Source: a virus. Taken from it: DNA of 20,277 bases. The position numbers were made by a program, and so were the translations under genes. The notes below the pieces were generated by a model, which saw only the letters and a list, made by a program, of their open reading frames with translations, was not told where the DNA came from and made no database searches. Shown one piece after another: positions 4,132 to 20,277 of the stretch. Location: the IMG/VR virus record IMGVR_UViG_3300032116_010293, positions 1-20,277 of that record, one strand, 5' to 3'. Each line of letters begins with the position of its first letter. Position 1 is the first letter of the stretch.

Positions 4132-4535
4132 TGATCCCCGTGTTCAGCGAAATCCGCGCTCAAGCATGGAAGTTCGGCACCATTGGCCTTGGCATTGTGT
4201 CGCTGGGTCTCGGCGTGACTGTGTTCGTTCTCGACCGGCACGCCGACAAGCTGCAAGCGTCGCTCACAACCTGCAACGCGAACCTGACCACGGCACGCAA
4301 CAACGTCACCATTCTGGAAGCGTCCATCGCCGCACAGAACCTCAGCATCCAGAACCTGAAAGACGAGTCCAAGCGTCGCACCGATGCTGCCGCCAAGGCA
4401 CTGGTCGAGGCTCAGAAGCGCACTCGCGTTGCCGAGCGCCGTGTCGAGACGCTGCGGGATCGACCCATTGAAGGTTCGACGCTTGAGGCGCGGGTGCTGA
4501 GCGTCGATGGTATGGTGTTGGAGACGATCAAATGA
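4131..4535 (+). CDS. Probable i-spanin (Rz-like inner-membrane spanin)
   Basis: This 134-residue protein has one N-terminal membrane segment (about 15-34) followed by a long charged, Ala/Glu/Lys/Arg-rich stretch (38-110) that should form coiled coil. That is the architecture of Rz-type inner-membrane spanins, which join an outer-membrane lipoprotein and drive outer-membrane fusion at the last step of Gram-negative lysis. The start overlaps the endolysin stop (TAATG), and the end overlaps the next gene, a lipoprotein of o-spanin type. There is little sequence conservation in this family, so the call rests on topology and context. Confidence 0.78.
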   Translation: MIPVFSEIRAQAWKFGTIGLGIVSLGLGVTVFVLDRHADKLQASLTTCNANLTTARNNVTILEASIAAQNLSIQNLKDESKRRTDAAAKALVEAQKRTRVAERRVETLRDRPIEGSTLEARVLSVDGMVLETIK

Positions 4536-6933: not shown

Positions 6934-7560
6934 TCAAGAGAATAGCGAGTCAAAGTCGTCAGTCTGACCGGACACCGCAAAAGGTGAATCGAACTTCGTC
7001 GTCTCGTTGCCCCATGCGTCCCATCCGTCGCGGCTCTGGCGAGCAAACATTTCGAGATAGGGGCCGTCAACTAGGCGCTCGATCCGTTCATACTGGTCAT
7101 CAGGCTTGCGACTATGCTCGCGCTTCGGCGCGTAGATTACATGGTCGTCGGTCTCGATCAGTTGCCGCACCCCAGCGTCGAGGCGCTTCGGCTTACCTCT
7201 GGTGAACAGCAGGCAGGTTTCGGTCTGCTTGCGCGACCAGTATCCCATGCTGATGGGCCGCACGTTGGGGTCATTCTTGCCAGTCTTAACCCAGACAAAA
7301 GCGTCGGTGACATATTTGAAACCCCAAGCTTCTGCGAGTTCGAACGCCTGCTTTAGATGCGACCCGACCACCCACATGAACAGTGCGCAGTTTTTGTCGG
7401 CCCAGTCGCTGACGGGAATTTCCATCAGGTCTTCGGTGTGTTCGGTCTGGTAGTGGTCGGTCTTAGTCCGACGCGGAGTCCCGTCGCGGTCGCCACCTGA
7501 AAAGGTGCGGAACTTCCATGGCGGGTCGCAGAGGATCGCTTTGTAGCGGGTCTCACTCAT
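6934..7560 (-). CDS. MT-A70-family adenine-N6 methyltransferase
   Basis: The 208-residue protein carries the catalytic DPPW at 12-15, FMWVV and AWGFKYVTDAFVWVK in the middle, then EHSRKPDDQYE, LEMFAR and GWDAWGNE towards the end. This is the full MT-A70 core, which transfers a methyl group from SAM to adenine N6. In a phage the likely substrate is DNA, for protection against restriction or for regulation. After the usual WGNE end there is an extra tail finishing DDFDSLFS, a motif also found on two other proteins here. The start overlaps the upstream gene's stop (ATGA), so translation is probably coupled. No restriction enzyme partner is visible. Confidence 0.92.
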   Translation of the reverse strand: MSETRYKAILCDPPWKFRTFSGGDRDGTPRRTKTDHYQTEHTEDLMEIPVSDWADKNCALFMWVVGSHLKQAFELAEAWGFKYVTDAFVWVKTGKNDPNVRPISMGYWSRKQTETCLLFTRGKPKRLDAGVRQLIETDDHVIYAPKREHSRKPDDQYERIERLVDGPYLEMFARQSRDGWDAWGNETTKFDSPFAVSGQTDDFDSLFS

Positions 7561-7584
7561 CCAAACAGATCCTCAAACTCATCG
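7556..7584. repeat. 29-bp copy 1 encoding the DEFEDLFG tail and next start
   Basis: These 29 bases match 12100-12128 at 28 positions in the same orientation. They encode the final D-E-F-E-D-L-F-G, the stop, and the overlapping ATGAG start of the next gene. The single mismatch is in a third codon position. Confidence 0.85.
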
Positions 7585-7826
7585 GCCACTTTCGGAGCAG
7601 CCTCATACCGACGCTCCAAGTCACGCGCTCGGCGCTCATCCTCGACCAGCGCAGCACGCAACGCATTTACGGGGTCACTCGAAACCTTGCTGTTCACGCA
7701 CTGCATCGCTTCATGCTTGCTGTAGTGGCAGATCGACGCCTGCCACCCTTCCTCGCTGCGGAACAGTTGGATGTGGCCGTAGTCTAGGCTGCATTCGCGG
7801 AGCAGGGTTTCGAGTGGGGTGGTCAT
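7557..7826 (-). CDS. Small protein with DEFEDLF tail, unknown function
   Basis: An 89-residue protein. Its first half has a GWQASICHYS strand-like segment followed by a DPVNALRAAL helix, a strand-helix pattern common in small phage proteins; then a charged helix (DERRARDLERRYE) leads to the end VADEFEDLFG. The final bases are 28/29 identical with the end of the gene at 12101-12547. It overlaps both neighbours (TGATG upstream, ATGA downstream), which places it in one operon with the GapR-like gene and the methyltransferase. I do not recognise the family; the tail suggests a shared binding partner. Confidence 0.7.
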   Translation of the reverse strand: MTTPLETLLRECSLDYGHIQLFRSEEGWQASICHYSKHEAMQCVNSKVSSDPVNALRAALVEDERRARDLERRYEAAPKVADEFEDLFG

Positions 7827-8116
7827 CAGATACCGATAGCTGCGCAGTAAGTATCCAGCAGCAGTTCCTGCTCGCGGCGGTCATCGGGGTTCATGGCGCG
7901 CAGCTTCAGGATCTGGCGCATGATCTTGACATCATAGCCAACAGCCTTCGCCTCAGCGAAAACGTCCTTGATGTCGTCCTGAATCCCCTTCTTCTCTTCG
8001 GCCAGTCGTTCCACCCGTTCCAGCAGAAGGATGAGCCGCTGATCGGTCTCCACGGTTCCCGAGTTGTGACCCACACCCGCAGTCTCGTAGTCGTCGTCAT
8101 CTTCATCATCAAACAT
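7826..8116 (-). CDS. GapR-like DNA-binding protein (DUF2312)
   Basis: This 96-residue protein starts with an acidic FDDEDDDDYE stretch, then GVGHNSG and a helical domain matching the DUF2312 pattern: ERVERLAEEKKGIQDDIKDV, FAEAKAVGYDVKIMRQI and DRREQELLLDTYCAAIGI. The family includes GapR of Caulobacter, a nucleoid protein that binds overtwisted AT-rich DNA ahead of replication and transcription. AAAGGGA six bases before the ATG supports the start. It precedes the DEFEDLF protein and the methyltransferase in one operon. A phage copy could support replication of phage DNA or compete with the host protein; that is inference. Confidence 0.9.
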   Translation of the reverse strand: MFDDEDDDDYETAGVGHNSGTVETDQRLILLLERVERLAEEKKGIQDDIKDVFAEAKAVGYDVKIMRQILKLRAMNPDDRREQELLLDTYCAAIGI

Positions 8117-8132
8117 AGTCAGTCCCTTTCTC

Positions 8133-8369
8133 TTAGTGTTGGGTGACAGGGTTACGCGGTGCGTTCTGCACCATGATCTCCGAACTCGCCGCCATCGACG
8201 AAATACATTCCCCTACCGTACCAGTCTCGACCGCAGTGACACCCAGCGTCGTGAGAAAAATCGTCACCGCATAAGGGAGTCCGTGTTGCTCAGCGATGTC
8301 CCAAAAGACTTGCAGAGCCGCGTCCTGCCACTCGTCTATGCTCAGTTGTTGAGTGGCACCTTGGTCCAT
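8133..8369 (-). CDS. Small protein of unknown function downstream of nrdB
   Basis: I favour the ATG at 8369 (MDQGATQQLSIDEWQDAAL...), giving 78 residues; a GTG at 8378 would add three. The middle part is moderately hydrophobic (YAVTIFLTTLGVTAVETG), enough for a weak membrane segment or a buried helix. No clear ribosome site is seen. A promoter-like sequence lies immediately upstream, inside the end of nrdB. I do not recognise the family. Confidence 0.6.
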   Translation of the reverse strand: MDQGATQQLSIDEWQDAALQVFWDIAEQHGLPYAVTIFLTTLGVTAVETGTVGECISSMAASSEIMVQNAPRNPVTQH

Positions 8370-8376
8370 GAGAATC

Positions 8377-8405
8377 ACGGTAGAGTTGAATCAGCGGTCA
8401 GTCAA
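8377..8405 (-). promoter_or_regulatory. Candidate promoter inside the end of nrdB
   Basis: On the minus strand TTGACT (8400-8405) and TACCGT (8377-8382) are separated by 17 bases, with TTCAACT in the spacer. It aligns without gaps to the candidate at 13623-13651 (21 of 31 positions). It would read into the 8133-8369 gene and the GapR operon. The -10 is poor by sigma70 standards. Confidence 0.4.
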
Positions 8406-9377
8406 TCGCTGATCGAACCTCGCCCAAGTTTCTGTCCAGTTGCCGCGCGTCGCCGCCTTGCTGTATTCCGTTGCGCGAGTCTCGAAGAAGTTGCCATGCT
8501 CAACACCGTTCAGCAACGGAATGAGCCACGGCAGCGGGTGGTCGGTTATGTCGAACATCGACTCCATGCCGAGTTGCATAAGTCGCCAGTCAGCGATGTA
8601 CCGGACGTATCTTTTGATGTCGGAGGCCGTCATACCTTGAACGCCGCCCTGCTCGAAGGCGAGGTCAATGAACTTGTCCTCGATCTGCACCGTGGTAGCA
8701 CAGTGGTTGCGGATGCGCTGGATCACCTTGGGGGTGAGCGCCCCAGTCTCTGCCGCGACAGCGTGGAACAGTCGAATGATCCCCTCGCAGTGCAGCGACT
8801 CGTCACGCACCGACCAAGTGACGATCTGACCCATACCCTTCATTTTGTTGAAGCGCGGGAAGTTCATCAGCATGGCGAAGCTGGCGAACAGTTGCAGACC
8901 TTCAGTGAAGCCGCCGAACATCGCCAGTGTGGTCAGAATGTCCTCATGGCTCTCGACGCCGAACTGCTGCAAATAGTCGTGCTTGGCCTTCATTTCCTCA
9001 TATTCGAGGAACGCCGAATACTCACTCTCAGGCATACCGATGGTGTCGAGCAGATGGCTGTAAGCCGCGATGTGAACTGTCTCCATGTTGCTGAACGCCG
9101 CCAGCATCATCTTCACCTCGGTCGGCTTGAACACGCGACCATACTTGTCATGGTAGCAGTCCTGCACCTCGACATCCGCCTGAGTAAAGAAGCGGAAAAT
9201 CTGTGTCAGCAGGTTCCGTTCTGAGTCGGTGAGCGCATACTTCCAGTCGCGCACATCCTCTGCCAGTGGTACTTCTTCCGGCAACCAGTGAATCTGCTGC
9301 TGGATCTTCCAATACTCAAACGCCCAAGGATAATGGAACGGCTTGTAGGACTTCGAGGCTTCAAACAGACTGCTCAT
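8391..9377 (-). CDS. nrdB: Ribonucleotide reductase class I, small (radical) subunit
   Basis: From ATG 9377 (AAGGGG upstream) the protein is 328 residues. The di-iron and radical residues fall at E. coli spacing: Asp68, Glu99, His102 and Tyr106 (in METVHIAAY) match Asp84, Glu115, His118 and Tyr122. Glu159 and the Glu193/His196 pair (RDESLH) complete the site. The subunit generates the tyrosyl radical used by the large subunit to convert ribonucleotides to deoxyribonucleotides. It overlaps the nrdA tail, so the two are co-transcribed. All radical-pathway residues I can place are present, so it should be active. Confidence 0.95.
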   Translation of the reverse strand: MSSLFEASKSYKPFHYPWAFEYWKIQQQIHWLPEEVPLAEDVRDWKYALTDSERNLLTQIFRFFTQADVEVQDCYHDKYGRVFKPTEVKMMLAAFSNMETVHIAAYSHLLDTIGMPESEYSAFLEYEEMKAKHDYLQQFGVESHEDILTTLAMFGGFTEGLQLFASFAMLMNFPRFNKMKGMGQIVTWSVRDESLHCEGIIRLFHAVAAETGALTPKVIQRIRNHCATTVQIEDKFIDLAFEQGGVQGMTASDIKRYVRYIADWRLMQLGMESMFDITDHPLPWLIPLLNGVEHGNFFETRATEYSKAATRGNWTETWARFDQRLTDR

Positions 9378-9387
9378 TTCATTCCCC

Positions 9388-11178
9388 TTATTGGCACGCA
9401 AGGCATTCGTCATAGTTGGTCGGAGCGGCCATGATTACCGGCTTTTCAATGGTGTTGTCCGCTTCGACGCCGCCAGCAAAACCGGCGCGCTGCACCGACT
9501 TCGACCGCAGATAATAGAGACTCTTGATACCCCGCTCCCATGCTTGGAAGTGCAACATCAGCAGATCCCACTTGTCTACGTCAGCCGGAATGAAAAGGTT
9601 GAGGCTCTGCGACTGGTCGATGAACGGAGTCCGGTCGGCAGCGAGTTCCAGCAGCCACCGCTGGTCGATTTCGAAGCTGGTCTTGAACACCGCCTTCTCG
9701 TTGTCCGTCAGGCAGTCGAGGTGCTGCACGGAACCACCGTTCTCCAAGATGCTGTTCCACACCGGATCGGTGTTGCTGTCGTGCTTGTCCAACACCGCTT
9801 CGAGCGCTCGGTTCTTCACGACGAACGAACCCGAAAGCGTCTTGTGGGTGTAGACGTTCGCTGGGATCGGCTCGATGCAGGCCGACGCACCGCCGCAGAT
9901 GATGCTGATAGATGCGGTGGGGGCGATGGCGCTCTTGTTGCTGAAACGCTTCTTCACACCCGCTCTCGCCGCATCGGGACACGGGCCACGTTCTTCGCAC
10001 AGCACCACATCGGCGGCTTCCAGTCGATCATGGATGTGGCGGAACATCTTCAGGTTCCATGCCTTCGCCATCGACCCTTCCATCGGCACACCCTTCGACT
10101 GAAGAAAGCCGTGAAAGCCCATCACTCCAAGCCCGACACTGCGCTCCATGATTGCAGAATAGACTGCGTTGCGCATTTCCTCGGGGGCATTGTCGATATA
10201 GTCCTGAAGCACGTTGTCGAGGAAACGCAGCACATCTTCGATGAACTTCGCGTCGCCGTGCCACTGGTCCCACGTTTCAAGGTTCAGCGACGACAAGCAA
10301 CAGACAGCCGTGCGCTCGTTACCAAGGTAATCGGTGCCGGTCGGAAGAAGGATCTCTGCACAAAGATTTGAAGTGGAAATCTTCAGGCCCAGATCGCGGT
10401 GATGCTTGGGTCGAGCGCGGTTCGCAGTATCCGAGAACACGATGTAAGGCTCACCAGTGGCAAGGCGCGTCTCGACCAACTTCTGAAACAACGACCTCGC
10501 ATCCACGCTACCCCGCACCGAGCCATCATGCGGCGAGCGAAGGTCGAACTGCGAGCCGCTGCGAACCGCTTCCATGAATTCGTCGCTGACCAGAACGCCA
10601 TGATGGAGGTTCAGCGCCTTGCGGTTGAAGTCACCACTCGGCTTGCGGATTTCAAGGAATTCTTCAATTTCGGGGTGGCTGATGTCGATATACGCAGCAG
10701 CACTGCCGCGCCGCAGTGATCCTTGGCTAATACCCAACGTCAGGGAGTCCATGACCTTGACGAACGGAATAATGCCGCTGGTTTTGCCGTTCAGGCCGAC
10801 CTTCTCACCAATGCCGCGCACCTTACCCCAGTAGGTGCCAATCCCGCCGCCCTTCGACGCGAGCCAGATGTTCTCATACCAGCGATCAGCGATACCCTTG
10901 AGACTGTCCTCCACGCTGTTTAGGTAGCAGGAAATCGGGAGACCCCGCTTCGTGCCGCCGTTCGACAGGACTGGCGTAGCAGGCATGAACCACAGCTTCG
11001 AGATATAGTCGTAGAGGCGTTGCGCATGGGCTTGGTCATCGGCAAACGCCCCTGCCACGCGAGCAAACATCGTCTGGTATGTTTCTCCCGGCAAAAGGTA
11101 GCGATCTTCGAGGGTTGCTTTACCGAAATCGGTCAGAAGGTGGTCGCGTGACTGGTCAATCGCTACGTCAAAGCGCAC
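9388..11178 (-). CDS. nrdA: Ribonucleotide reductase class I, large (catalytic) subunit
   Basis: The GTG at 11178 is the likely start: GGAG lies 8 bases upstream, while the nearby ATG is out of frame. The 596-residue protein has the active-site elements in order: Cys84 (PISCYLNS), Asn271/Cys273/Glu275 (NLCAEI), Cys293-Cys294 (CCLSSLN), PTASIS at 420-425, the Tyr555-Tyr556 radical relay and a C-terminal Cys592-x-x-Cys595 redox pair. It reduces NDPs to dNDPs for phage DNA synthesis. At about 600 residues it lacks the N-terminal ATP cone of longer enzymes, so overall activity control by dATP is probably absent. A strong -10 stands upstream. Confidence 0.95.
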   Translation of the reverse strand: MRFDVAIDQSRDHLLTDFGKATLEDRYLLPGETYQTMFARVAGAFADDQAHAQRLYDYISKLWFMPATPVLSNGGTKRGLPISCYLNSVEDSLKGIADRWYENIWLASKGGGIGTYWGKVRGIGEKVGLNGKTSGIIPFVKVMDSLTLGISQGSLRRGSAAAYIDISHPEIEEFLEIRKPSGDFNRKALNLHHGVLVSDEFMEAVRSGSQFDLRSPHDGSVRGSVDARSLFQKLVETRLATGEPYIVFSDTANRARPKHHRDLGLKISTSNLCAEILLPTGTDYLGNERTAVCCLSSLNLETWDQWHGDAKFIEDVLRFLDNVLQDYIDNAPEEMRNAVYSAIMERSVGLGVMGFHGFLQSKGVPMEGSMAKAWNLKMFRHIHDRLEAADVVLCEERGPCPDAARAGVKKRFSNKSAIAPTASISIICGGASACIEPIPANVYTHKTLSGSFVVKNRALEAVLDKHDSNTDPVWNSILENGGSVQHLDCLTDNEKAVFKTSFEIDQRWLLELAADRTPFIDQSQSLNLFIPADVDKWDLLMLHFQAWERGIKSLYYLRSKSVQRAGFAGGVEADNTIEKPVIMAAPTNYDECLACQ

Positions 11179-11216
11179 AGGTTTTTCTCCATTATCAGGT
11201 AGGGTGAGCCGTCCAC

Positions 11217-11245
11217 ATTATAGTGAAACTCAGTCCCCCGCAATG
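11217..11245 (-). promoter_or_regulatory. Candidate promoter for nrdA-nrdB
   Basis: The minus strand has a perfect TATAAT (11217-11222) in the 51-base gap between the dNMP kinase stop and the nrdA start. The -35 is less clear: CATTGC at 17-base spacing, or TTGCGG at 15. The stretch before the -10 (GACTGAGTTTCAC) resembles the GACTCG-TTTTCAACT of the sites at 13623 and 15427. Confidence 0.5.
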
Positions 11246-11910
11246 CGCTCGTCGGGATAAATTTCGATGGGTCGCGGATTGTTCCGGTTCCAGACATGGT
11301 AGTCCTCACCGACTGCATACATCACGCGGTCGAGCATCAGGTGAAGCTGCTTCAGGGTGCCGTTGTTGTGGACGATGAAGTCGGGACGCAACAGATCGAC
11401 GCGCTCGCTGGGATGCACGCCCCACATCGCCCCAGTAAGCCGGTAGGCGAGTTTCCCGAGGCGGCTGGTGAACGCGACTGGTCCGGCTACCTTGCGCACA
11501 ATCATAATCGTGAAGCCGTTCATCTGCCGGATCTTGGTTTCCTCGTTGGGGAAGCGGACAGAATCATTCATGGCAGGCGAGGTGAGACGTTCTGCGCGTT
11601 GCTGCCAGCAATTCACCCACAGGTCGGGGGAAATCTGCGCACGGCCCCATTCGGTCCCGAGCGTGATCTGAGCATGGCGACTGGTCACACCGAGACAGGG
11701 GATCACGTTTTCCTTGCCCGCACCTTCGAGGTAATAGTGAATCTGGTCGTAGTCGTAACCGAAGTCGATCAGCAGACTGTGAAGCATCGCCCGCAGCGGA
11801 TCGGCAATGTGCAGCCGAGTGTACCCGTATTCGGCTTCGAGGTAGTTGGCGGCGGTGGTCTTGCCCGACTTGGCGAAACCCGACAAGCCGATGGATGGTG
11901 TGGTGTTCAT
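11230..11910 (-). CDS. Deoxynucleoside monophosphate kinase-like P-loop protein
   Basis: From ATG 11910, whose ATGA overlaps the upstream stop, the product is 226 residues. Residues 11-19 are a Walker A loop (GFAKSGKTT), followed by a YLEAEYGYTRLHIADPLR segment (lid/substrate region) as in phage dNMP kinases. Later parts have TLGTEWGR and a VRFPNEE-KIRQ-NG segment, which in this family contacts substrate. It would phosphorylate dNMPs to dNDPs, fitting its place just upstream of ribonucleotide reductase. Substrate preference cannot be read from sequence. Confidence 0.82.
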   Translation of the reverse strand: MNTTPSIGLSGFAKSGKTTAANYLEAEYGYTRLHIADPLRAMLHSLLIDFGYDYDQIHYYLEGAGKENVIPCLGVTSRHAQITLGTEWGRAQISPDLWVNCWQQRAERLTSPAMNDSVRFPNEETKIRQMNGFTIMIVRKVAGPVAFTSRLGKLAYRLTGAMWGVHPSERVDLLRPDFIVHNNGTLKQLHLMLDRVMYAVGEDYHVWNRNNPRPIEIYPDERIAGD

Positions 11911-12104
11911 GGTAGTTGGGTCTCCTGAGTTTGTGTAGATAGGTGCCATTCAATTCCGGCAGACCAGCCATCGCACAGCTTGCCGTCTTGGTCTTTATGG
12001 TCGGCGGGATATTGCCGCATTCGGTTGCTGAATGAACTGCCGAAGCGCGTGCGGACGCGCTTACCGCAGACGCGGCAGTTGAGGGATTTCACCTTAACGC
12101 TCAT
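11907..12104 (-). CDS. Small Cys-containing (possible zinc) protein
   Basis: A 65-residue, basic protein with Cys10-x-x-Cys13 (LNCRVCGKRVRTR), His36 and Cys44, a possible single zinc-binding site. It starts with an ATGA overlap at the end of the DEFEDLF-tailed gene and ends with an ATGA overlap into the dNMP kinase, so it belongs to the same operon. I do not recognise the family; nucleic-acid binding is a guess from charge and the CxxC pair. Confidence 0.7.
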   Translation of the reverse strand: MSVKVKSLNCRVCGKRVRTRFGSSFSNRMRQYPADHKDQDGKLCDGWSAGIEWHLSTQTQETQLP

Positions 12105-12128
12105 CCAAACAGATCCTCAAATTCATCG
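12100..12128. repeat. 29-bp copy 2 encoding the DEFEDLFG tail and next start
   Basis: This matches 7556-7584 at 28 of 29 bases, same orientation, covering the last codons, the stop and the overlapping ATGAG of the following gene. Flanking sequence on both sides diverges. Confidence 0.85.
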
Positions 12129-12547
12129 TCACTGGTCGCCGCCTCAGGTTCACCCTCGAACAGCGCATCGAAGTCATCGTCTGCCGCCACTGGCGACGCG
12201 ATTTCCTCGACGGGGGTAGCAACCTCATCACCCATCACCTGCGACCACAAGCGATCCAGCACCTCGTCGGCACGTCCCGTGTTGCGGTATGCCTGATCCA
12301 TTGCGTCGAGGGCGGTCTTGCCTTCACCCTCAGCAAGATACAGCGCCGTCCAGCCACCTGTTGCGGTGCGCTGCGTCGTGAAGGCGACGCACTTGTAGCG
12401 GCGACCCTCTTTGGTGGGGAAGTCGCAATAGAAGCCGCGCTTACCGGCTTCACGGTGGAACTCGGCCCAGCAGGGCCGTTCCTTCATCGCTTCGATTTCA
12501 GGGTCTGGTCGCCAAAACATTTCCGCTTGAATCCTGTAGGGTTTCAC
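12101..12547 (-). CDS. Protein with two (D/E)F(D/E)xLF motifs, unknown function
   Basis: I favour the GTG at 12547, with GGAGAG 5 bases upstream (148 residues, overlapping the HTH gene by 50 bases); the ATG at 12520 is an alternative. The N-terminal two thirds form a small mixed domain: WAEFHREAGKRGFYCDFP, KCVAFTTQRT, GGWTALYLAEGEGKTALDAMDQAY. This is followed by an acidic linker (VEEIASPVAADDDFDALFE) and the end SDDEFEDLFG. The last motif is nearly identical in DNA to that ending the 7557 gene. The layout of GW-strand, ALDA helix and acidic-aromatic tail recalls that gene, so they may be distant paralogues. The function is unknown. Confidence 0.75.
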   Translation of the reverse strand: MKPYRIQAEMFWRPDPEIEAMKERPCWAEFHREAGKRGFYCDFPTKEGRRYKCVAFTTQRTATGGWTALYLAEGEGKTALDAMDQAYRNTGRADEVLDRLWSQVMGDEVATPVEEIASPVAADDDFDALFEGEPEAATSDDEFEDLFG

Positions 12548-12773
12548 TGTTGCTCTCCAATCCCAGCAACCACGCGACGCTGACACCCGTGGCAGCAGCA
12601 AGACACTCCACCGCCACCAGTGTCGGGTTCGATTGCTCACCTCGCGCCAGACGACGAATGTAGTCCAAGCTGAAGCCCGACTGGTGACAGATGACCTTCA
12701 TCGGCACTTCAGCTTTGCGCCGGTCGAGGGCTTCCCTGAGACGGACGTGAAAGCTGGCGGTGAGGCTGGTCAT
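12498..12773 (-). CDS. Cro/CI-type helix-turn-helix regulator
   Basis: From ATG 12773, which overlaps the upstream stop (ATGA), the protein is 91 residues. Residues about 9-70 form an HTH_3-like domain: RLREALDRRKAEVPMKVICHQ, then SGFSLDYIRRLARGEQSNP (turn and recognition helix), then TLVAVECLAAATGVSVAWLLG. This is the fold of small phage repressors and Cro proteins. There is no peptidase or dimerisation domain, so it resembles Cro more than a full CI repressor. Its place inside a long operon rather than at a divergent promoter argues against a classic immunity switch. Confidence 0.85.
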   Translation of the reverse strand: MTSLTASFHVRLREALDRRKAEVPMKVICHQSGFSLDYIRRLARGEQSNPTLVAVECLAAATGVSVAWLLGLESNSETLQDSSGNVLATRP

Positions 12774-12934
12774 GCTGCGTCCATCAAACAAAACACAGCA
12801 GTCCGACGCCCATTGGCATCGCGCTGGCGGATATAGGTCATCTTGCCGACCTGATAGTAGTCACCACCGTCCCAGAGGATCGAGGTGCCGTCCATCGGGC
12901 CACCGGACAAGGTGATGCGCTTGTAGCTAGGCAT
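12770..12934 (-). CDS. Small GGPMDG-motif protein
   Basis: A 54-residue product beginning MPSYKRITLSGGPMDGTSI, with a YYQVGKMTYIRQRDANG middle. A conserved-looking SGGPMDG segment of this kind is frequent in very small phage proteins of unknown role. AAGGG lies 8 bases before the ATG, and its stop overlaps the HTH gene start (ATGA). The frame is tightly enclosed between two coding genes, which supports it as real. Confidence 0.72.
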   Translation of the reverse strand: MPSYKRITLSGGPMDGTSILWDGGDYYQVGKMTYIRQRDANGRRTAVFCLMDAA

Positions 12935-12937
12935 CGT

Positions 12938-13147
12938 TCAAACCCTTCCTCTGAGATCCAAGGCAGCGATGCGAGGATACCCCCACTTGCGGACGCCGTT
13001 GACGATCACCGTCTTGTCGTAGTCAATGGGTCGCCATGCAATCAGGTAACGCCTGAAACGCAGTGTCCAACCGTTGCCGTAAGGGCCAACGGTGAGTCGC
13101 AGCCACCAAGGGCCAAAGTGAAAGCCAACATTGTTATCCCACGGCAT
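12938..13147 (-). CDS. Small Trp-rich protein of unknown function
   Basis: This is a 69-residue basic protein rich in aromatic residues (MPWDNNVGFHFGPWWLRLTVGP, then GWTLRFRRYLIAWRP). It has alternating hydrophobic/charged strands rather than a membrane span. It overlaps the upstream HTH gene by 14 bases and ends just before the GGPMDG gene. I do not recognise it. Confidence 0.65.
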   Translation of the reverse strand: MPWDNNVGFHFGPWWLRLTVGPYGNGWTLRFRRYLIAWRPIDYDKTVIVNGVRKWGYPRIAALDLRGRV

Positions 13148-13391
13148 CAGACGTGTCCTTCTTCAAATGCGGGTGACGCTGGTAATACTTCGTAATCGCC
13201 TTGGTCACGCTCGACTGGTCGATACCCAGACTATCAGCGATCTGCTGATGGGTTTCCCCAGCAGCGTGACGCTCGATGAAACTGCGCGCCCGTGCGTCGG
13301 CTTTGGACTGTATCTTGTTGACCGCCCGCTGTTTGGACGCAGGATACTTCTTCCGCTTCTGGTAGAGCGCGCGGGCTTGTTCCGGTGTCAC
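13134..13391 (-). CDS. Small helix-turn-helix DNA-binding protein
   Basis: Eighty-five residues from a GTG at 13391 that overlaps the upstream stop (GTGA). The N-terminus is very basic (YQKRKKYPASKQRAVNKIQ). Residues about 49-70 form a resolvase/sigma-like HTH (GETHQQIADSLGIDQSSVTKAI), ending in a KYYQRHPHLKK segment. It may act as a small transcription or packaging-type DNA binder. No catalytic domain is present. Confidence 0.75.
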   Translation of the reverse strand: MTPEQARALYQKRKKYPASKQRAVNKIQSKADARARSFIERHAAGETHQQIADSLGIDQSSVTKAITKYYQRHPHLKKDTSDAVG

Positions 13392-13594
13392 TTCCAGACT
13401 CCCGCCTGATTGATGCGACGGATCAGGTTTGTGCCGTAATTCTTGGAAACCTTCTCACCTTGGACATCAACCAGCTTCACAGCCACCTCGCGCAGCAGCC
13501 CTTCGAGCAATACGACTCGCGCCTGCAAGCGCACCGGATCAAGGGACGGGCGATACTGGGGGTCGTCGTAACTCTGCGGCGGAACTTCATACAT
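13388..13594 (-). CDS. Small protein of unknown function
   Basis: This 68-residue protein has an N-terminal Pro/Tyr-rich stretch (YEVPPQSYDDPQYRP) followed by an amphipathic helix (DPVRLQARVVLLEGLLREVAVKLVDVQG). AAGGGAG lies about 9 bases before the ATG. It is the first gene after the promoter-like site at 13623-13651, and its stop overlaps the HTH gene start. I do not recognise the family. Confidence 0.68.
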   Translation of the reverse strand: MYEVPPQSYDDPQYRPSLDPVRLQARVVLLEGLLREVAVKLVDVQGEKVSKNYGTNLIRRINQAGVWK

Positions 13595-13622
13595 AGCGAA
13601 TCACTCCCTTAATGATGTTCTC

Positions 13623-13651
13623 ACCGTAAAGTTGAAAAGCGAGTCATGCAA
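13623..13651 (-). promoter_or_regulatory. Candidate promoter upstream of the 13388-13594 gene
   Basis: Minus strand: TTGCAT (13646-13651), 17-base spacer containing GACTCGC and TTTTCAACT, then TACGGT (13623-13628). The same elements occur at 15427-15455 and 8377-8405. The -35 end overlaps the stop codon of the upstream gene. Confidence 0.45.
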
Positions 13652-13880
13652 CCGTGTTTTCAATCAGGTCAGGAAAATTCATTTCTCGACCTGTGCGCGG
13701 GTTTACCGGAAACGCATCACGCTCGGTTCCCTTGGCGAAGATCACCGTGTCACCCTCTTCGATCTCACGCAGCGCCCGACGATCCCATCCCATGTGAATG
13801 AAGTCAGGGCGTCCCCAGACTCGCACTGCGGACCAGTATTCTTCACCTCGAAATCCGACGAAGTGGACGCACGGTGTCAT
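13644..13880 (-). CDS. Small protein of unknown function
   Basis: A 78-residue protein: VHFVGFRGEEYWSAVRVWGRPDFIHMGWDRRALREIEEGDTVIFAKG, then VNPRTGREMNFPDL. The pattern of short strands with Trp, Gly and charged residues suggests a small beta-rich domain. Its stop lies inside the -35 element of the next promoter-like site. It follows the 2-TM gene by 3 bases. I do not recognise it. Confidence 0.68.
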   Translation of the reverse strand: MTPCVHFVGFRGEEYWSAVRVWGRPDFIHMGWDRRALREIEEGDTVIFAKGTERDAFPVNPRTGREMNFPDLIENTVA

Positions 13881-13883
13881 GAC

Positions 13884-14138
13884 TCATGCTACCCTCTGCT
13901 TCAACCACTGCCACGGGCTGCGCCCGTCGAACAGTCGCCGCAACACATACTGGCGGATAATCGAGACCACGGTGAAGATCATCGTAATGCTGATATTCGT
14001 GAACCACGTCATCTGAATACCATAGGCTCGCGCCACGAAGAACCATGTGACCAGCGACACCACGAAACCGATGGCCGTGTTCGTGATGGACTCCATCAGC
14101 GAGTCGATGCGTGACTGGGTGTGCTGGCGGCTGGTCAT
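13884..14138 (-). CDS. Two-span membrane protein (DUF7220-like)
   Basis: From ATG 14138, which overlaps the upstream stop (ATGA), the protein is 84 residues. Hydrophobic segments lie at about 20-37 and 47-66, followed by a basic RQYVLRRLFDGR. The pattern SxxESxxNTxIGFVVSxxxxxF...W....I....T..SxxRxYxxRRxF resembles a widespread small phage/bacterial membrane family that I recall as DUF7220; the family name is from memory. It is the last of three consecutive small membrane proteins. The function is unknown. Confidence 0.75.
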   Translation of the reverse strand: MTSRQHTQSRIDSLMESITNTAIGFVVSLVTWFFVARAYGIQMTWFTNISITMIFTVVSIIRQYVLRRLFDGRSPWQWLKQRVA

Positions 14139-14305
14139 CCCCAGCCTCCTGCGAACCAGATCAGCGACACCTCGACCAGCAGCATCGCAGCAACAGGCCA
14201 CCCGTTGAAGCGGTGCTGGCGAACGATATGGCCGTGTCGATAGGCTGCGAGCGCCAAGGTGCTGAGGAACAGCACTGCCAGTGCGATGCGGGCGAAGGTG
14301 GTCAT
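14135..14305 (-). CDS. Small two-span membrane protein
   Basis: The start at ATG 14305 overlaps the upstream stop (ATGA), giving 56 residues instead of the longer open frame. Hydrophobic segments are at about 6-22 and 36-53, joined by a basic loop (YRHGHIVRQHRFNG) that should face the cytoplasm. It is encoded between two other small membrane proteins with 4-base overlaps on both sides. The function is unknown. Confidence 0.65.
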   Translation of the reverse strand: MTTFARIALAVLFLSTLALAAYRHGHIVRQHRFNGWPVAAMLLVEVSLIWFAGGWG

Positions 14306-14538
14306 GTCAGCACCATTGCGGCGCTCAGCAGGCCACCGAGTCCCATGCCGATCAGAAAACTGCCGACATGACCCATCCACTCTTCGTCTCGGGCCTTAGC
14401 GTAACCGTGGCGGCGTCCGTGTGTGTAGCCTTCCTGATACCCGTCCTCATAGCCGAAGGGGTTCTCGTAGCCCATCCGGTGCAGGTCGCTGTCGATGGGC
14501 TTCGGTGGGGCTAAGATTTCTCCGGTCCACTCTGCCAT
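14302..14538 (-). CDS. Gly/Tyr-rich single-span membrane protein
   Basis: I chose ATG 14538 (TGATG overlap with the upstream stop); the product is 78 residues. A hydrophilic Gly/Tyr/His-rich stretch (NPFGYEDGYQEGYTHGRRHG at 26-45) precedes a C-terminal membrane segment (58-77), so it is tail-anchored in appearance. I do not recognise it. The dense GYxxGY repeats suggest a low-complexity interaction region. Confidence 0.66.
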   Translation of the reverse strand: MAEWTGEILAPPKPIDSDLHRMGYENPFGYEDGYQEGYTHGRRHGYAKARDEEWMGHVGSFLIGMGLGGLLSAAMVLT

Positions 14539-14735
14539 CACACCACCACCTCAAACCGCTCAGCGAAACCCGCTTCGCTCGTCACCGTCGTATTGTCCTG
14601 CGGGCGACCGCCTTCCTGATAGCGAACCCGCATCAGGACTCGCTTGTCCGTGGTGCGTGCCAGCAACATGCCTTCGAGACCGTCTTTCTTGCGACGGTGA
14701 GTCACGACGAAGGGTTGCTTTTCTGGCTTTTTCAT
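14538..14735 (-). CDS. Small basic protein of unknown function
   Basis: A 65-residue protein with a very basic start (MKKPEKQPFVVTHRRKKDG) and a strand-rich middle (GMLLARTTDKRVLMRVRYQEGG). It may be a small beta domain with nucleic-acid affinity, judged only by charge. The start overlaps the upstream stop by 4 bases and the stop overlaps the next start. No family is recognised. Confidence 0.66.
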   Translation of the reverse strand: MKKPEKQPFVVTHRRKKDGLEGMLLARTTDKRVLMRVRYQEGGRPQDNTTVTSEAGFAERFEVVV

Positions 14736-15106
14736 TGGTTACTCCCATTCTTTGCGTTGAGCCGCCGAAGCAGCGGGATCTGGTATTCTTCGCCAGTGTG
14801 GTGGCGGTAGAAGTCGCGCACATTGGCGAAGCAATCGTCGCGTCGCAGAATTTCCTGCTTCGCTGAGTCTGCGTCGCCTGCTGCATGGTGGAGAGAAATG
14901 GCCGAGTTCTTTGCCACTGCCAGTGCGCCAGCGCAGAAAGCAGTCTGAGGGTTGAACGGCCCGAAGTCGCTCATGTGACAGGCAGGCGCTTCATTCAACG
15001 CCAGTGCATCGGCGTAGAATTCTGCGGAATGACCACCGAGCCATCCTGCTGGTGCTTCTTTGCGCCACGGGCATTCTGCGCAGGCGACGCGATGCTTCAG
15101 TTCCAC
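14732..15106 (-). CDS. Cys-rich phage protein (DUF6283-like)
   Basis: From the GTG at 15106 (AAGGGGA upstream) the protein is 124 residues. The N-terminal half has a conserved-looking pattern: Cys9-x-x-Cys12 in ECPWRKEAP, then GWLGGHSAEFYADAL, then ACHM (43-44) and FCAGAL (Cys58). This set of Cys/His residues suggests a metal site, and the pattern matches a family I recall as DUF6283, present in many phages and actinobacterial genomes. No function is established. The C-terminal half is helical and charged. Confidence 0.75.
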   Translation of the reverse strand: MELKHRVACAECPWRKEAPAGWLGGHSAEFYADALALNEAPACHMSDFGPFNPQTAFCAGALAVAKNSAISLHHAAGDADSAKQEILRRDDCFANVRDFYRHHTGEEYQIPLLRRLNAKNGSNQ

Positions 15107-15117
15107 TATGCGTCCCC

Positions 15118-15381
15118 TTATTCTTCGCTGAAAAACTGAACCGCGTCGGCGCGGTCGATGTGCTGAAGCGCGGCCTGCTGCGGCGTCTCGTTGAGACTCG
15201 CCATGCTGTTGACCATGTTCCTGAAATCCATCAGCGTGTTGAACGCTTCTGCCACGTCAGCGGCGAACTCTGGAAAGGTCTGCCCTGCCAGTGCGTGATC
15301 GCCATACTCGACATACAGATTCAGGCGACTACGAACCTCCATGATCTTGTCGAACGGCGTCTGCTTACGGGTACGTCCCAT
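15118..15381 (-). CDS. Small helical protein of unknown function
   Basis: An 87-residue protein, mostly helical by eye: DKIMEVRSRLNLYVEYGDHAL, then EFAADVAEAFNTLMDFRNMV, then a Gln/Ala-rich end. GGGAG lies about 9 bases before the ATG. It is the first gene after the promoter-like site at 15427-15455 and leads the run that continues to 13644. I do not recognise the family. Confidence 0.66.
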   Translation of the reverse strand: MGRTRKQTPFDKIMEVRSRLNLYVEYGDHALAGQTFPEFAADVAEAFNTLMDFRNMVNSMASLNETPQQAALQHIDRADAVQFFSEE

Positions 15382-15426
15382 ATAATGTTACTCCCTATTC
15401 CGACTCACCATCGAGCCGACGAATCA

Positions 15427-15455
15427 CGCATAAGTTGAAAACCGAGTCGCGTCAA
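15427..15455 (-). promoter_or_regulatory. Candidate promoter in the 15382-15472 gap
   Basis: Minus strand: TTGACG (15450-15455), 17-base spacer with GACTCGG and TTTTCAACT, then TATGCG (15427-15432). This is the best-formed member of the shared site set. It lies in a 91-base gap, one of the few real intergenic spaces in the minus-strand block. Confidence 0.55.
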
Positions 15456-15472
15456 CAGTCCTCGGACAGCGA

Positions 15473-16084
15473 TCAGAATTTCTTCCCATCCGCCTTCAAG
15501 CGGTTCTCGATGCGATGATCCGCCCTCTGAGCATTATAAGCCCGCTTGGCAGCAATCACTTCCGGCAACCCATCATCACAGAAGACATCGGCCACGGCAT
15601 AGATACCACCGAGACACCGCCACAGGGCTTCGAGATATTTGGCGCGGTTCCCCTTCCGATACCCTTCCATAGCGGCGCTGATGCAGTTAACCAGTTCCAT
15701 CACCTGACGACTAGTGGAGTGCGTCGTCCATTGCCACTGCTGCCAGTTGGAGCGCACCACGCGGTCGAAGTTCATCCCTGCCGCATCGCAGCCCAGCAGA
15801 TCGTAGAGCCGTATTGCAGCGTCGGCCAGTTCCACGTCGAAGCCGTAGAGTTCCGGCAGCTTGTCGTCCATCGCTCCATTGCTCCACGCCTCATGCGCTT
15901 CGCTGAGTTCCGTGACAATCAGCATCAACATTTCGGGGCGACTGCGCGTCTCGATGATCGACTCGCCGGTTGTGATGTTGGTCCACCATCCTGCCGCGAT
16001 GTTGTCCTGATGGATCTCGGCGGCGAGACTGGTATGCTCGATGTCGAGCGAGGCTGGGGTTTCGGTTTCACGTTCGAGAGTCAT
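15473..16084 (-). CDS. MazG-like nucleotide pyrophosphohydrolase
   Basis: The 203-residue protein has the metal-binding helices of the all-alpha NTP pyrophosphatase superfamily: Glu59-x-x-Glu62 in TELSEAHEAW and Glu85-x-x-Asp88 in VELADAAIRLYDLL. AGGAGA six bases upstream supports the ATG. Such enzymes hydrolyse (d)NTPs to monophosphates; in phages they have been linked to nucleotide recycling or clearing of alarmones and modified nucleotides. The C-terminal 100 residues (helical, with WRCLGGIYAVADVF) are an extension beyond the core. The family assignment is good, the substrate unknown. Confidence 0.82.
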   Translation of the reverse strand: MTLERETETPASLDIEHTSLAAEIHQDNIAAGWWTNITTGESIIETRSRPEMLMLIVTELSEAHEAWSNGAMDDKLPELYGFDVELADAAIRLYDLLGCDAAGMNFDRVVRSNWQQWQWTTHSTSRQVMELVNCISAAMEGYRKGNRAKYLEALWRCLGGIYAVADVFCDDGLPEVIAAKRAYNAQRADHRIENRLKADGKKF

Positions 16085-16114
16085 TTCAGGTCTCCTGTTG
16101 AGGTGTTGGGACGG

Positions 16115-16204
16115 TCATTTGAGAATGAACCACATGATGAACAGGAAGATCATCAGCGTTCCGATGTTGTCGATGGCTTCGACAATTTCTGCGGCACCTT
16201 CCAT
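16115..16204 (-). CDS. 29-residue single-span membrane peptide
   Basis: This very short frame encodes an acidic N-terminus (MEGAAEIVEAIDNIG) followed by a hydrophobic segment (LMIFLFIMWFIL) and a final Lys. GGGGGAGGG lies just upstream, and the start overlaps the previous stop (TGATG). It fills the gap between two genes. The coupling and clean topology support translation, although chance cannot be excluded at this length. Confidence 0.55.
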   Translation of the reverse strand: MEGAAEIVEAIDNIGTLMIFLFIMWFILK

Positions 16205-16587
16205 CACCCTCCCCCTTGCGGCGCAGCGGGAATGGGCATCCAGTGGGTGAACGTCCAATCACCGTTCATCCCGCTTCCGTATGGCTTGCCACGGAAAAAC
16301 GTCCCCATGACCACCCCCTTAGGGCGCGGCTCTGGGTGCGAATAGATTGTGCGAATGTCGGCGCACCACAAAAGAACCGGTTCGTCGTCAACCGCATTGG
16401 CGCTGTCTGCAATGTCCTGCCACCCCTGCGCCGCCAGTTCGGCCTCAAGCTGGGCGATGCGGGCTTGCAGAACTTCGATATGGTCAAGCGCCAGCCAAAA
16501 CTCTTCCGGCGTGTATTCGCCAACAGCGGACACCATGCCTTCCGGTTCCAACTTGCGCCATTCTGCGATCTGTTCCGGTGTAATCAT
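16204..16587 (-). CDS. Coiled-coil protein with DUF551-like C-terminus
   Basis: From ATG 16587, which overlaps the upstream stop (ATGA), the protein is 127 residues. It has an N-terminal TPEQIAEWRKLEPEG segment, a coiled coil (ALDHIEVLQARIAQLEAELA) and a C-terminal domain (WQDIADSANAVDDEPVLLW ... GDWTFTHWMPIPAAP). The W...VLLW...THWMPIP pattern is that of DUF551, a small phage domain of unknown function. The coiled-coil DNA is 34/35 identical to part of the gene at 18289-18672, and each of these genes follows a copy of the same 140-bp repeat. Confidence 0.75.
   Translation of the reverse strand: MITPEQIAEWRKLEPEGMVSAVGEYTPEEFWLALDHIEVLQARIAQLEAELAAQGWQDIADSANAVDDEPVLLWCADIRTIYSHPEPRPKGVVMGTFFRGKPYGSGMNGDWTFTHWMPIPAAPQGGG
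16430..16464. repeat. 35-bp coiled-coil-coding repeat, copy 1
   Basis: Matches 18431-18465 at 34 of 35 bases, same strand and frame, and encodes ARIAQLEAELA in both genes. Flanks diverge, so only this stretch of the coiled coil is conserved at DNA level. Confidence 0.8.
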
Positions 16588-16727
16588 CGGCCCTTCCCCT
16601 TCTGATACAGATGCGGGTGACGTTCCCGCGTGATGCGCCATGCCCGCTCGTCAACTTTGGACATGGGTTCGATCTTCCCCCACACACGCGAGGGCTTCGG
16701 GATGCGGTGGATCGGGAGGGCGGTCAT
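16584..16727 (-). CDS. Small basic protein (intact copy of duplicated gene)
   Basis: A 47-residue basic product: MTALPIHRIPKPSRVWGKIE, then SKVDERAWRITRERHPHLYQ and KGKGR. It starts with an ATGA overlap on the membrane-protein stop and ends with an ATGA overlap into the DUF551-like gene. A near-identical DNA copy lies at 18672-18814, where one extra base breaks the frame. The end RERHPHLYQKGKGR resembles the RHPHLKK segment of the HTH protein at 13134-13391, which may reflect common descent. The function is unknown. Confidence 0.7.
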   Translation of the reverse strand: MTALPIHRIPKPSRVWGKIEPMSKVDERAWRITRERHPHLYQKGKGR

Positions 16728-16729
16728 GC
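16588..16729. repeat. 142-bp direct repeat, intact copy
   Basis: This stretch reappears in the same orientation at 18672-18814, nearly base for base. Differences cluster at 16676-16688 versus the corresponding stretch near 18760-18773, where the second copy is one base longer. It spans the whole 47-codon gene. Confidence 0.85.
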
Positions 16730-18302: not shown

Positions 18303-18672
18303 TGCGTATCTCCTCAATCTTGGCGGTGAGCTTTGGGGCAAGGGCGCGCAAGGCATCATCAACCTCGCTGCAATGAGGATGGGGCACCCAGTCCACATTC
18401 CTCGCCACAAGCGCCATCGCCTCCCGCGCCGCCGCTAGTTCGGCCTCAAGCTGGGCGATGCGGGCCTTCAAGGCGTGATGGTGCGCGTCCTCGGCAGCCT
18501 TCCACCCTTCAAGTTCTGCGACATCGGCTTGCAGGGCTTCGATGCGGTCGGCGGCTTCGGTCATGACCTCGTTTGCCGCTTCAATGTCGAACAATTCCGT
18601 TGAATTGTCCTCATGAAGCCCAAATGCAGGCACGCCGTGCCGCAGCACCTCGATCAGATCTTCATCACCCAC
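18289..18672 (-). CDS. Coiled-coil protein downstream of the broken repeat copy
   Basis: The GTG at 18672 has AGGAG 7 bases upstream and gives 127 residues; upstream ATG frames run into the repeat in another frame. A long heptad-like stretch covers about 38-90 (TEAADRIEALQADVAELEGW, later ALKARIAQLEAELAAAREAM), then a VDWVPHPHCSEVDDALRAL region. It shares ARIAQLEAELA, and its DNA, with the DUF551-like gene, but lacks that domain. I do not recognise the family. Confidence 0.68.
   Translation of the reverse strand: MGDEDLIEVLRHGVPAFGLHEDNSTELFDIEAANEVMTEAADRIEALQADVAELEGWKAAEDAHHHALKARIAQLEAELAAAREAMALVARNVDWVPHPHCSEVDDALRALAPKLTAKIEEIRNGQG
18431..18465. repeat. 35-bp coiled-coil-coding repeat, copy 2
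   Basis: One mismatch in 35 with 16430-16464, same strand and reading frame. Confidence 0.8.
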
Positions 18673-18812
18673 GGCCCTTCTCCTTCTGATACAGATGCGG
18701 GTGACGTTCCCGCGTGATGCGCCATGCCCGCTCGTCAACTTTGGACATGGGTTCGATCTTGCCCCACGTCATGCGAGGGCTTCGGGATGCGGTGGATCGG
18801 GAGGGCGGTCAT
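18665..18812 (-). pseudogene. Frameshifted second copy of the 47-residue gene
   Basis: The ATG at 18812 opens like the intact gene (MTALPIHRIPKPS), but an extra base within about 18760-18773 shifts it into an early stop. An in-frame ATG at 18772 could still give 35 residues (MTWGKIEPMSKVDERAWRIT and onward, ending QKEKGRG), with no visible ribosome site of its own. It may therefore be a decaying gene or a short, coupled version. The changes creating the new ATG sit exactly at the shift, so restart by translational coupling is conceivable. Confidence 0.65.
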
Positions 18813-18814
18813 GC
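18672..18814. repeat. 143-bp direct repeat, frameshifted copy
   Basis: Second copy of 16588-16729 in the same orientation, one base longer, with nearly all other positions identical. About 2.1 kb separates the two. Confidence 0.85.
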
Positions 18815-19628: not shown

Positions 19629-20277
19629 GCTTGGGGTTCCTCTTCGCCAATCGCAATGCCAGTGAGCCGCGCATATTCGAGCGCCCATTCCAGAGCCTTC
19701 GCCGCACGAAAACCACCTTCGCTATCGTCGCCCGGTTTCATGCCCCTGTGGATCGGCGCAAACCATTGCTCGGCAGGCGATGAAGCCTGATGCGGAATGC
19801 CCGATGCACCGCCATTTTCCAGCGTGCCGACAAGGCAGGCGCACTCACCTTCATAAGTCGAGCCGTCCACGCGGCCATCGCGCAAAGCGTTAATCAGGTG
19901 CGGCACTTCGGCATGGCCCATTGCGAGGATCATGAAGAAGTCGGCTTTGATGTGCCGCAGGTCGGCATCGATCAGGTCGGCACCGCTCAGGTTGGCACCG
20001 CTCAGGTCGGCACCGCTCAGGTTGGCATTGCGCAGGTTGGCATTGCGCAGGTCGGCACCGCTCAGGTTGGCATTGCGCAGGTCGGCACCGCTCAGGTCGG
20101 CATCGATCAGGTCGGCACCGCTCAGGTCGGCACCGCTCAGGTTGGCATTGCGCAGGTCGGCATCGATCAGGTCGGCACCGCTCAGGTCGGCATCGATCAG
20201 GTCGGCACCGCTCAGGTTGGCACCGCTCAGGTTGGCATTGCGCAGGTCGGCATTGCGCAGGTTGGCACCGCTCAGGT
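19625..20277 (-). CDS. Pentapeptide-repeat protein, 5' end outside window
   Basis: The frame is open to the window edge, so the start is missing. From the edge to 19958 it is a run of A(D/N)LxX repeats (21 full 15-base units) built only from LSGA, LRNA and LIDA steps. After the repeats comes a C-terminal domain starting [20 protein letters not shown], with [20 protein letters not shown] and [12 protein letters not shown]. The repeats should form a right-handed quadrilateral beta-helix; some such proteins mimic DNA and bind gyrase, but many have no known role. The C-terminal [14 protein letters not shown] segment looks like one often attached to pentapeptide repeats in phages. Its stop overlaps the next start. 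Confidence 0.88.
19958..20277. repeat. 15-bp tandem repeat array coding pentapeptides
   Basis: There are 21 complete 15-base units plus 5 bases, continuing past the edge. Each plus-strand unit is CAGGT(C/T)GGCA followed by CCGCT, TCGAT or TTGCG. Only five unit types are seen, so the array is much more uniform in DNA than a beta-helix requires. Confidence 0.95.

Follow-up and report, generated by a model that had tools for sequence, protein, structure and literature searches.

Sigma70-type promoters overlapped by a proposed dispersed palindromic operator in a Casjensviridae-type phage and their predicted CI-like repressor

Introduction

The closest described counterparts of the system treated here are the lysogeny modules of the Casjensviridae, in which a helix-turn-helix (HTH) repressor homologous to our candidate regulator (gp78 of Achromobacter phage AchV4, gp70 of Burkholderia phage AH2, gp19 of the Rhodobacter RcD cluster) lies beside helicase, excisionase, integrase or terminase genes. 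Passages of the published accounts relate AchV4 gp78 to lambda cI by HHpred (PMC7996906) and AH2 gp70 to the CI protein of phage 186 (PMC3483164). Other published passages report that RcD-cluster phages, which carry a homologue of the regulator, form superinfection-resistant lysogens (PMC8601537), and that AchV4, also with a homologue, behaved as a lytic phage from which stable lysogens were not recovered (PMC7996906). Here, we analyze an entire IMG/VR virus record of 20,277 bases (IMGVR_UViG_3300032116_010293), called the window throughout, which is classed as linear and is probably a fragment. A sequence-only reading had singled out three promoter-like sites on its minus strand that share part of their spacer, and had suggested that a phage regulator binds there. 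We consider it likely that the three sites belong to a temperate phage of the Casjensviridae type and act as sigma70-type promoters, each overlapped by a dispersed operator of a CI-like HTH_3 repressor. The host of this phage is probably a member of the Sphingomonadales.

Results

Three promoters on the minus strand of the window

The sites, with the names of the recurring promoter positions to which they belong, are as follows.

Site A (P1), 15427-15455, minus strand: -35 TTGACG at 15450-15455, 17-bp spacer, -10 TATGCG at 15427-15432
Site B (P2-like), 13623-13651, minus strand: -35 TTGCAT at 13646-13651, 17-bp spacer, -10 TACGGT at 13623-13628
Site C (P4), 8377-8405, minus strand: -35 TTGACT at 8400-8405, 17-bp spacer, -10 TACCGT at 8377-8382

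The coordinates, strand, TTG-type -35 elements and 17-base spacers given by the sequence-only reading are confirmed by the sequence, as is the gapless identity of sites B and C at 21 of 31 positions. Site A sits upstream of the open reading frame (ORF) 15118-15381, and an orthologous promoter holds the same place in the related records G001, G002 and G005. Site B is upstream of ORF 13388-13594. Both had been assigned to intergenic gaps, which needs amending for site B, where 8 of 29 bases lie inside the end of ORF 13644-13880. Site C overlaps the end of nrdB (8391-9413; nrdA occupies 9388-11178), yet its position is right for a promoter of the gene that follows, ORF 8133-8369, where it is conserved in four relatives; all five records holding the P4 locus have it. 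The ATG start codon of this gene, at 8369, comes 7 nucleotides past the -10, so that the predicted message would be leaderless or nearly so.

Judged within the window alone, the resemblance of the three sites is marginal. Two other pairs in the window match as closely as sites A and B do (16/17), a 21/31 match to site B occurs at 3 window positions including site B itself (against 1 in the reversed control), and a strict sigma70 consensus scan of the window flagged none of the three sites. This marginal similarity, with the promoter-like spacing at all sites, speaks for a simple explanation in which these are plain sigma70 promoters that bind no further protein and share a spacer by chance or common descent.

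A promoter family conserved at orthologous genes

Relatives were reached by two routes. A search with nrdA, independent of the motif, retrieved L007 (87% amino acid identity) and L008 (85%), with DNA identity of about 75%; both have TTGAC-N17-TAnGGT with TCAAC ahead of the -10. Two promoter patterns retrieved G001 (71 kb), G002 (44 kb) and G003 (66 kb), and the matches through which these three were found are not independent evidence; their other operators played no part in the selection. Direct searches gave less: megablast of window part 8000-16500 against phage records had no match, and proteins 15118-15381 and 15473-16084 matched, among viral contigs, a near-identical contig alone (L005, L006, L009).

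Across the records, promoters recur at four positions at orthologous genes.

P1: after a MazG-like gene; site A in the window
P2: the site B-like position
P3: no counterpart found in the window
P4: after nrdB or the gene replacing nrdB; site C in the window

All 17 promoters at these four loci have a TTG -35 (TTGAC in 13), 14 of the 17 have an exact TCAAC, and TAnnGT follows at spacing 17 in 13 and at spacing 16 in 3. The promoters without an exact TCAAC are the P2 copies of G001, G002 and G005, which carry TTTCACG. With as many as 3 mismatches allowed, the reversed-sequence controls of all six records gave no match. These counts agree with what is expected of a sigma70-type promoter (-35 TTGAC(A), spacer of 16-18 bp, -10 with A as its second and T as its sixth base), the -10 of site A being TATGCG. 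By this anatomy and its orthologous conservation, the sites form a real promoter family of the sigma70 type. In G005, P1 and P2 lie on one strand and P3 and P4 on the other, which may be biology or assembly. Around positions 16032-16079 of record L125, and in its counterparts in G001 and G002, P1 stands within a larger inverted repeat (TGACCCGCTGT ... ACAGCGGGTCA), where the promoter motif is nearly readable on both strands.

The pattern of conservation points beyond a promoter. TTGAC, TCAAC, TA and GTGATTC are the same in all five P4 copies, and each of the 11 bases separating TTGAC from TCAAC differs in at least one copy; plain sigma70 promoters are a poorer account of orthologous promoters in which the rest of the spacer is not conserved. 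In the promoters bearing CAAC, the distance from the start of CAAC to the end of the next TGA is constant at 14 bases, with the -10 beginning either 1 or 2 bases after CAAC, and therefore a second fixed element overlies the promoter.

A 19-bp near-palindrome over the -10

The conserved element is a 19-bp near-palindrome, TTTCAAC-N5-GTTGAAA, lying over the -10, of which the TTCAACT seen earlier is one half; its right half is often GTGA or TTGAT. We built a symmetrised weight matrix from 41 unique sites in eight other genomes, none from the window, and scored the window with it.

Operator at site A, 15422-15440, minus strand: TTTCAACTTATGCGTGATT, 17.0 bits, rank 1 of 20,259
Operator at site B, 13619-13637, minus strand: TTTCAACTTTACGGTGAGA, 16.8 bits, rank 2 of 20,259
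Operator at site C, 8373-8391, minus strand: ATTCAACTCTACCGTGATT, 12.65 bits, rank 3 of 20,259
Possible fourth member, D, 11210-11228, minus strand: TTTCACTATAATGTGGACG, 10.3 bits, rank 4; over a TATAAT -10 upstream of nrdA

The three sites are far above chance, because a matrix trained without the window places them first to third of 20,259. A sequence resembling member D, TCACTATA..GTGAC, precedes nrdA in L007 and G005. The shared spacer described by the sequence-only reading thus stands in part: the TTCAAC half holds, together with a mirror half over the -10, and the GACTCG block, absent from the promoters of the relatives, falls away. Searched in viral contigs, the exact pattern GACTCG-N-TTTTCAACTT-N4-GT gave 4 stretches, namely 1 near-identical copy of the window and 3 in coding DNA of unrelated contigs, and for this reason we do not regard the block as a shared element.

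Operators are scattered over phage genomes and concentrated between genes

Operators were counted at a threshold of 12 bits, with the reversed sequence as control. The counts of sites scoring at least 12 bits, followed in brackets by the reversed control and the number of intergenic operators, are 3 (0; 3) in the window, 4 (1; 2) in L007, 5 (0; 3) in G005, 19 (1; 15) in G001, 10 (2; 9) in G002, 18 (2; 16) in G003, 21 (2; 15) in AchV4, 17 (0; 10) in KPN_BP and 20 (0; 16) in RHph_X2_30. Of the last three, 47,490 of 59,489, 50,000 of 58,387 and 49,700 of 69,699 bases were scanned. Intergenic DNA makes up 7-14% of these records, as delimited by the gene caller. The motif is therefore not as common in coding DNA as ahead of genes, the outcome that would have counted against the sequence-only reading; operators are concentrated in that 7-14%. 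Several stand between structural genes, in RHph_X2_30 and in the Sphingomonas prophage described below, an arrangement known from systems of dispersed operators.

Matches are fewer in other phages: 1 in Chi and 2 in BcepNazgul (40,000 bases of each scanned), 2 in AH2 (38,066 of 58,065 bases), 1 in RcPescado, 4 in DSS3-P1, all intergenic (39,602 of 59,601 bases), and 8 in SS2019XI (37,568 of 57,567 bases). AchV4, KPN_BP, RHph_X2_30, RcPescado, SS2019XI, AH2 and DSS3-P1, like the two chromosomes below, were selected by the candidate regulator; these 7 are the phages scanned for operators among the 63 phage records that match it at E 1e-2; at E 1e-5, 43 phage records have it.

Near the contig end of G001 (L117), three near-identical operator regions at 62994, 69153 and 69699 are apparently tied to duplicated genes. 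By eye, their operators cover the -35 instead of the -10.

Confinement to prophage DNA in two chromosomes

A search of a genome collection with the regulator gave two loci, the full-length one in Sphingomonas sp. TREG-RG-20F-R18-01; this genome is one of the 2 among 396 genomes of the order that hold the regulator. Neither chromosome contributed to the matrix. In 200 kb of the Sphingomonas chromosome, 22 sites reached 12 bits, 21 of them in a 67-kb prophage and 1 in the 133 kb outside it (reversed control, 1). Within the prophage, 13 of the 21 operators are intergenic, as is 8% of its DNA. In the 200 kb around the regulator of the second chromosome, 6/6 sites fall inside a prophage-like stretch (reversed control, 1); these sites drift to TGTCAAC-N5-GTGACA, and the repressor promoter has the variant dyad TGTCAC-N7-GTGACA. 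A Novosphingobium metagenome-assembled genome, L137, was not counted in the family, having an N-terminal match only, in a different protein beside a gene that by eye is uvrB-like; a 24-bit site stands upstream of that protein.

These distributions bear on the idea of plain sigma70 promoters with an accidental or inherited spacer. A palindrome that occurs 10-21 times per genome in six long genomes, in differing gene contexts and hosts (against 0-2 in reversed sequence), and that is confined to prophage DNA in chromosomes, makes that idea very improbable. The suggestion that a phage DNA-binding regulator lies behind the extra spacer conservation is, to judge from sequence comparison, its best explanation.

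A CI-like protein as the candidate regulator

The sequence-only reading had pointed to small HTH proteins of the window as possible binders. Searched by tblastn against 7 other related records or prophages, those at 12498-12791 and 13134-13391 gave no match, and for lack of a homologue in these relatives they are unlikely to be the regulator. A CI-like HTH_3 protein, which the longer relatives encode at another place, is most likely a better candidate. Its G001 and G003 versions are 228/229 amino acids long and have, in the N-terminal half, an HTH_3 domain (PF01381) that scores above the Pfam cut-off (P0001, P0002); a tyrosine integrase of G001 has a homologue in G003. Annotations of Casjensviridae call homologues of the regulator repressor or HTH regulator, and genes for excisionase, integrase or terminase are close by. 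An operator stands directly upstream of the CI-like gene in G001 (site 11983; gene 12062) and in G003 (sites 62859 and 62901; gene 62940), as well as in AchV4, KPN_BP, RHph_X2_30 and the Sphingomonas prophage; upstream of the regulator gene of SS2019XI and AH2 no palindrome was seen. Chi and BcepNazgul gave no regulator match at E 1e-5. The helix [VI]SxE[TA]VRKWFxGE[AS][KR]PRP is common to five operator-rich phages and altered in RcPescado, SS2019XI, AH2 and DSS3-P1. Against chains named CI in the PDB, the regulator profile matches weakly (E 0.056-0.069).

A different protein might be the main binder. A small Cro-like HTH protein is encoded divergently beside the primase gene (3849-4166 in G001, 52217-52522 in G003) and could silence the early promoters in lytic growth, with the CI-like protein perhaps sharing its sites. 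A small gene annotated as HTH or regulator occupies this position by the primase in G001, G003, RcPescado, AchV4 and AH2, and the G001 operators at 4228 and 4251 lie in the divergent gap ahead of the Cro-like gene. Chi, however, keeps the small gene by its primase yet lacks the palindrome in the scanned part, and the operator-rich phages also carry a site ahead of the CI-like gene. We regard a mainly Cro-like binder as unlikely.

The sites might also be recognised by a sigma factor or RNA polymerase of the phage itself. Genes with sigma-70 region 2, of the extracytoplasmic function (ECF)-like kind by Pfam, are present at L118:9102-9593 and L122:17235-17717; the one in G002 adjoins P4, and the one in G003 has the equivalent position. 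Among six records compared pairwise, however, the ECF-like gene was found only in these two; dyad symmetry is not what a sigma factor needs; and the place of the palindrome at the repressor promoters is not fixed, being downstream of the -10 in some and over the -35 in others. Recognition of this kind has, in our judgment, a very small chance of being right.

GANTC motifs and a possible GcrA/CcrM layer

Sections of a published study report that Caulobacter GcrA acts at methylated GANTC, in the context TGATTCG or YGAKTCK, near sigma70 promoters, and that a Brevundimonas prophage operon is GcrA-dependent (PMC7987155). The GANTC motifs near sites A and B are the following.

15444-15448, 15421-15425 and 15402-15406 (span 15401-15449): three GANTC sites around site A, each within a YGAKTCG
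13597-13603, minus strand: TGATTCG, adjoining GGGAGTGATTCG, the ribosome-binding site of the gene that site B precedes

The sites could be primarily promoters under host GcrA/CcrM control, with GANTC (as GACTCG in sites A and B) as the regulated element and TTCAAC secondary. Downstream of the promoters of the window group, GATTC is present in 17/17 and TGATTCG in 12/17. YGAKTCG lies within 55 bp of 3/12 operators in the window, 1/6 in L007, 2/8 in G005, 11/32 in G001, 5/24 in G002 and 4/23 in G003, counts reached by 0, 0, 7, 0, 0 and 0 of 1000 random intergenic placements, respectively; the six records are related, hence these tests are not independent. Against such control as the primary one, the enrichment is weak in the Sphingomonas prophage (3/43, reached in 55 of 1000 placements) and was not seen in RHph_X2_30, DSS3-P1, AchV4 or KPN_BP, and the palindrome persists in beta- and gammaproteobacterial phages. 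GANTC in the spacer was also rejected as the main basis of the family, most relatives having spacers without it. Primary control by GcrA and CcrM is, on this balance, quite improbable. As GANTC is patchy while the palindrome persists, GANTC can be a second layer and not the basis of the family.

Plain GANTC near operators is enriched in a Klebsiella phage too (9 near sites, reached in 0/1000), so only the extended YGAKTCG is kept as a hint. All GGAGTGATTC ribosome-binding sites in the list of GTGATTC occurrences of six records belong to operator-bearing genes, a restriction that argues against a plain ribosome-binding constraint; extended pairing with 16S rRNA is a possible confounder of the GTGATTC signal. 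Both sphingomonad genomes with repressor-like proteins (2/2) have genes for GcrA and for a RAMA-domain (CcrM-type) protein. Tentatively, lytic promoters of this group may be under two layers of control, one being the dispersed repressor palindrome at the -10 and the other a TGATTCG that is methylated and recognised by GcrA, so that the host cell cycle would gate the lysis-lysogeny decision; we consider this possible but less likely than not. If true, after the repressor is lifted, promoter firing would depend on host replication and CcrM methylation.

GANTC is under-represented over the whole window, with 58 occurrences against a shuffle mean of 96 (100/100 shuffles had at least 58).

Other features of the window and its relatives

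At 7826-8116 on the minus strand, the window has a gene for a GapR-like DNA-binding protein (PF10073, E 4e-30), with homologues in five of the five other records compared; it is a phage copy of a protein that structures the chromosome in Alphaproteobacteria. The minus-strand genes 7557-7826 and 12101-12520 encode a common acidic C-terminal tail, DEFEDLFG (in a 29-bp DNA repeat, 97% identical), and similar DDFD.LF-like tails end an MT-A70-like protein of the window and other proteins in the relatives; the tail is possibly a docking peptide for a shared partner. Positions 6934-7560 (minus strand) of the window, L125:6048-8084 and L007:7205-7861 are one locus, at which the relatives have differing DNA methyltransferase-like genes, and the 678-amino-acid methyltransferase-like protein of L125 has, by eye, an apparent intein-like interruption. 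Two blocks, of 96 and 45 bp, occur in duplicate with hardly a difference, within 16588-16729 and again about 2.08 kb away within 18672-18814. At 19960-20277, a protein that by eye resembles pentapeptide-repeat proteins runs off the end of the record.

Discussion

Our analysis suggests that three look-alike promoters are part of an immunity network that is predicted to be genome-wide in a phage family, and supplies for it an operator defined to 19 bp and a candidate repressor family. A CI-type operator is expected to be dyad-symmetric, to be repeated at phage promoters and to stand at the promoter of the repressor itself; the palindrome is repeated in this way and, in six of the phages and prophages, lies at the promoter of the CI-like gene. 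We infer that the CI-like protein is the binder, that its binding represses and that the window phage can form lysogens. The repressor gene would lie outside the 20-kb fragment, beside helicase, integrase and terminase genes, which is where the longer relatives have it. Sitting over the -10 as a dimer, the repressor of a lysogen would keep RNA polymerase from these promoters, as well as blocking it at many further sites scattered over the genome, and would regulate its own promoter.

Several observations weigh against this proposal. The repressor gene is not within the window, and its presence in the window phage is a prediction. RcPescado, AH2 and SS2019XI have a homologue of the regulator yet no clear set of palindromes (of their 1, 2 and 8 matches, 1, 1 and 2 are intergenic), so that the pairing of regulator and operator holds only if specificity drifts. 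The helix of the Sphingomonas prophage also deviates and yet accompanies the operator, and therefore the correlation between helix and operator is suggestive only. Operators A and C have a poor right half (GTGATT for GTTGAAA). The operator counts in genomes used for training are partly circular, and the consensus was first drawn by eye with the window sites known, which leaves the matrix test not wholly blind. The AlphaFold model of the Sphingomonas repressor is poor (mean predicted local distance difference test score 48.8), too poor for a search. Finally, the second small HTH protein beside the primase, named Cro in the annotation of AH2, is a possible binder.

The operator could be used to find lysogeny modules, to predict immunity groups and to probe a possible link of phage promoters with the CcrM/GcrA cell-cycle methylation of the host, and controls are at hand in the relatives lacking the operator and in the two chromosomal prophages. 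We found no description of such operators in this phage family in the open-licence full texts searched. The C1 repressor of phage P1 resembles the proposed regulator in that one protein serves many dispersed operators overlapping promoters; its operators, unlike the one here, are asymmetric, and the protein is unrelated. For AchV4 (PMC7996906) and AH2 (PMC3483164), the passages searched describe no operators, and a network of binding sites is proposed here. As at the GcrA/CcrM-dependent promoters of Alphaproteobacteria, in the sections of that study already cited, TGATTCG or YGAKTCK stands near sigma70 promoters (PMC7987155), but here the motif is in phage promoters, atop a predicted repressor operator. 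The stoperators of cluster A mycobacteriophages, bound by the L5-type repressor, are likewise many and scattered over the genome, including between structural genes, according to parts of a published account (PMC9283540). A stoperator system would further have its sites aligned with transcription and halting elongation; sites between structural genes are present here too, and for a palindrome orientation has no meaning. The L5-type repressor is a monomer with an asymmetric site, whereas the element described here is nearly palindromic, 19 bp long and in many cases placed right over a promoter.

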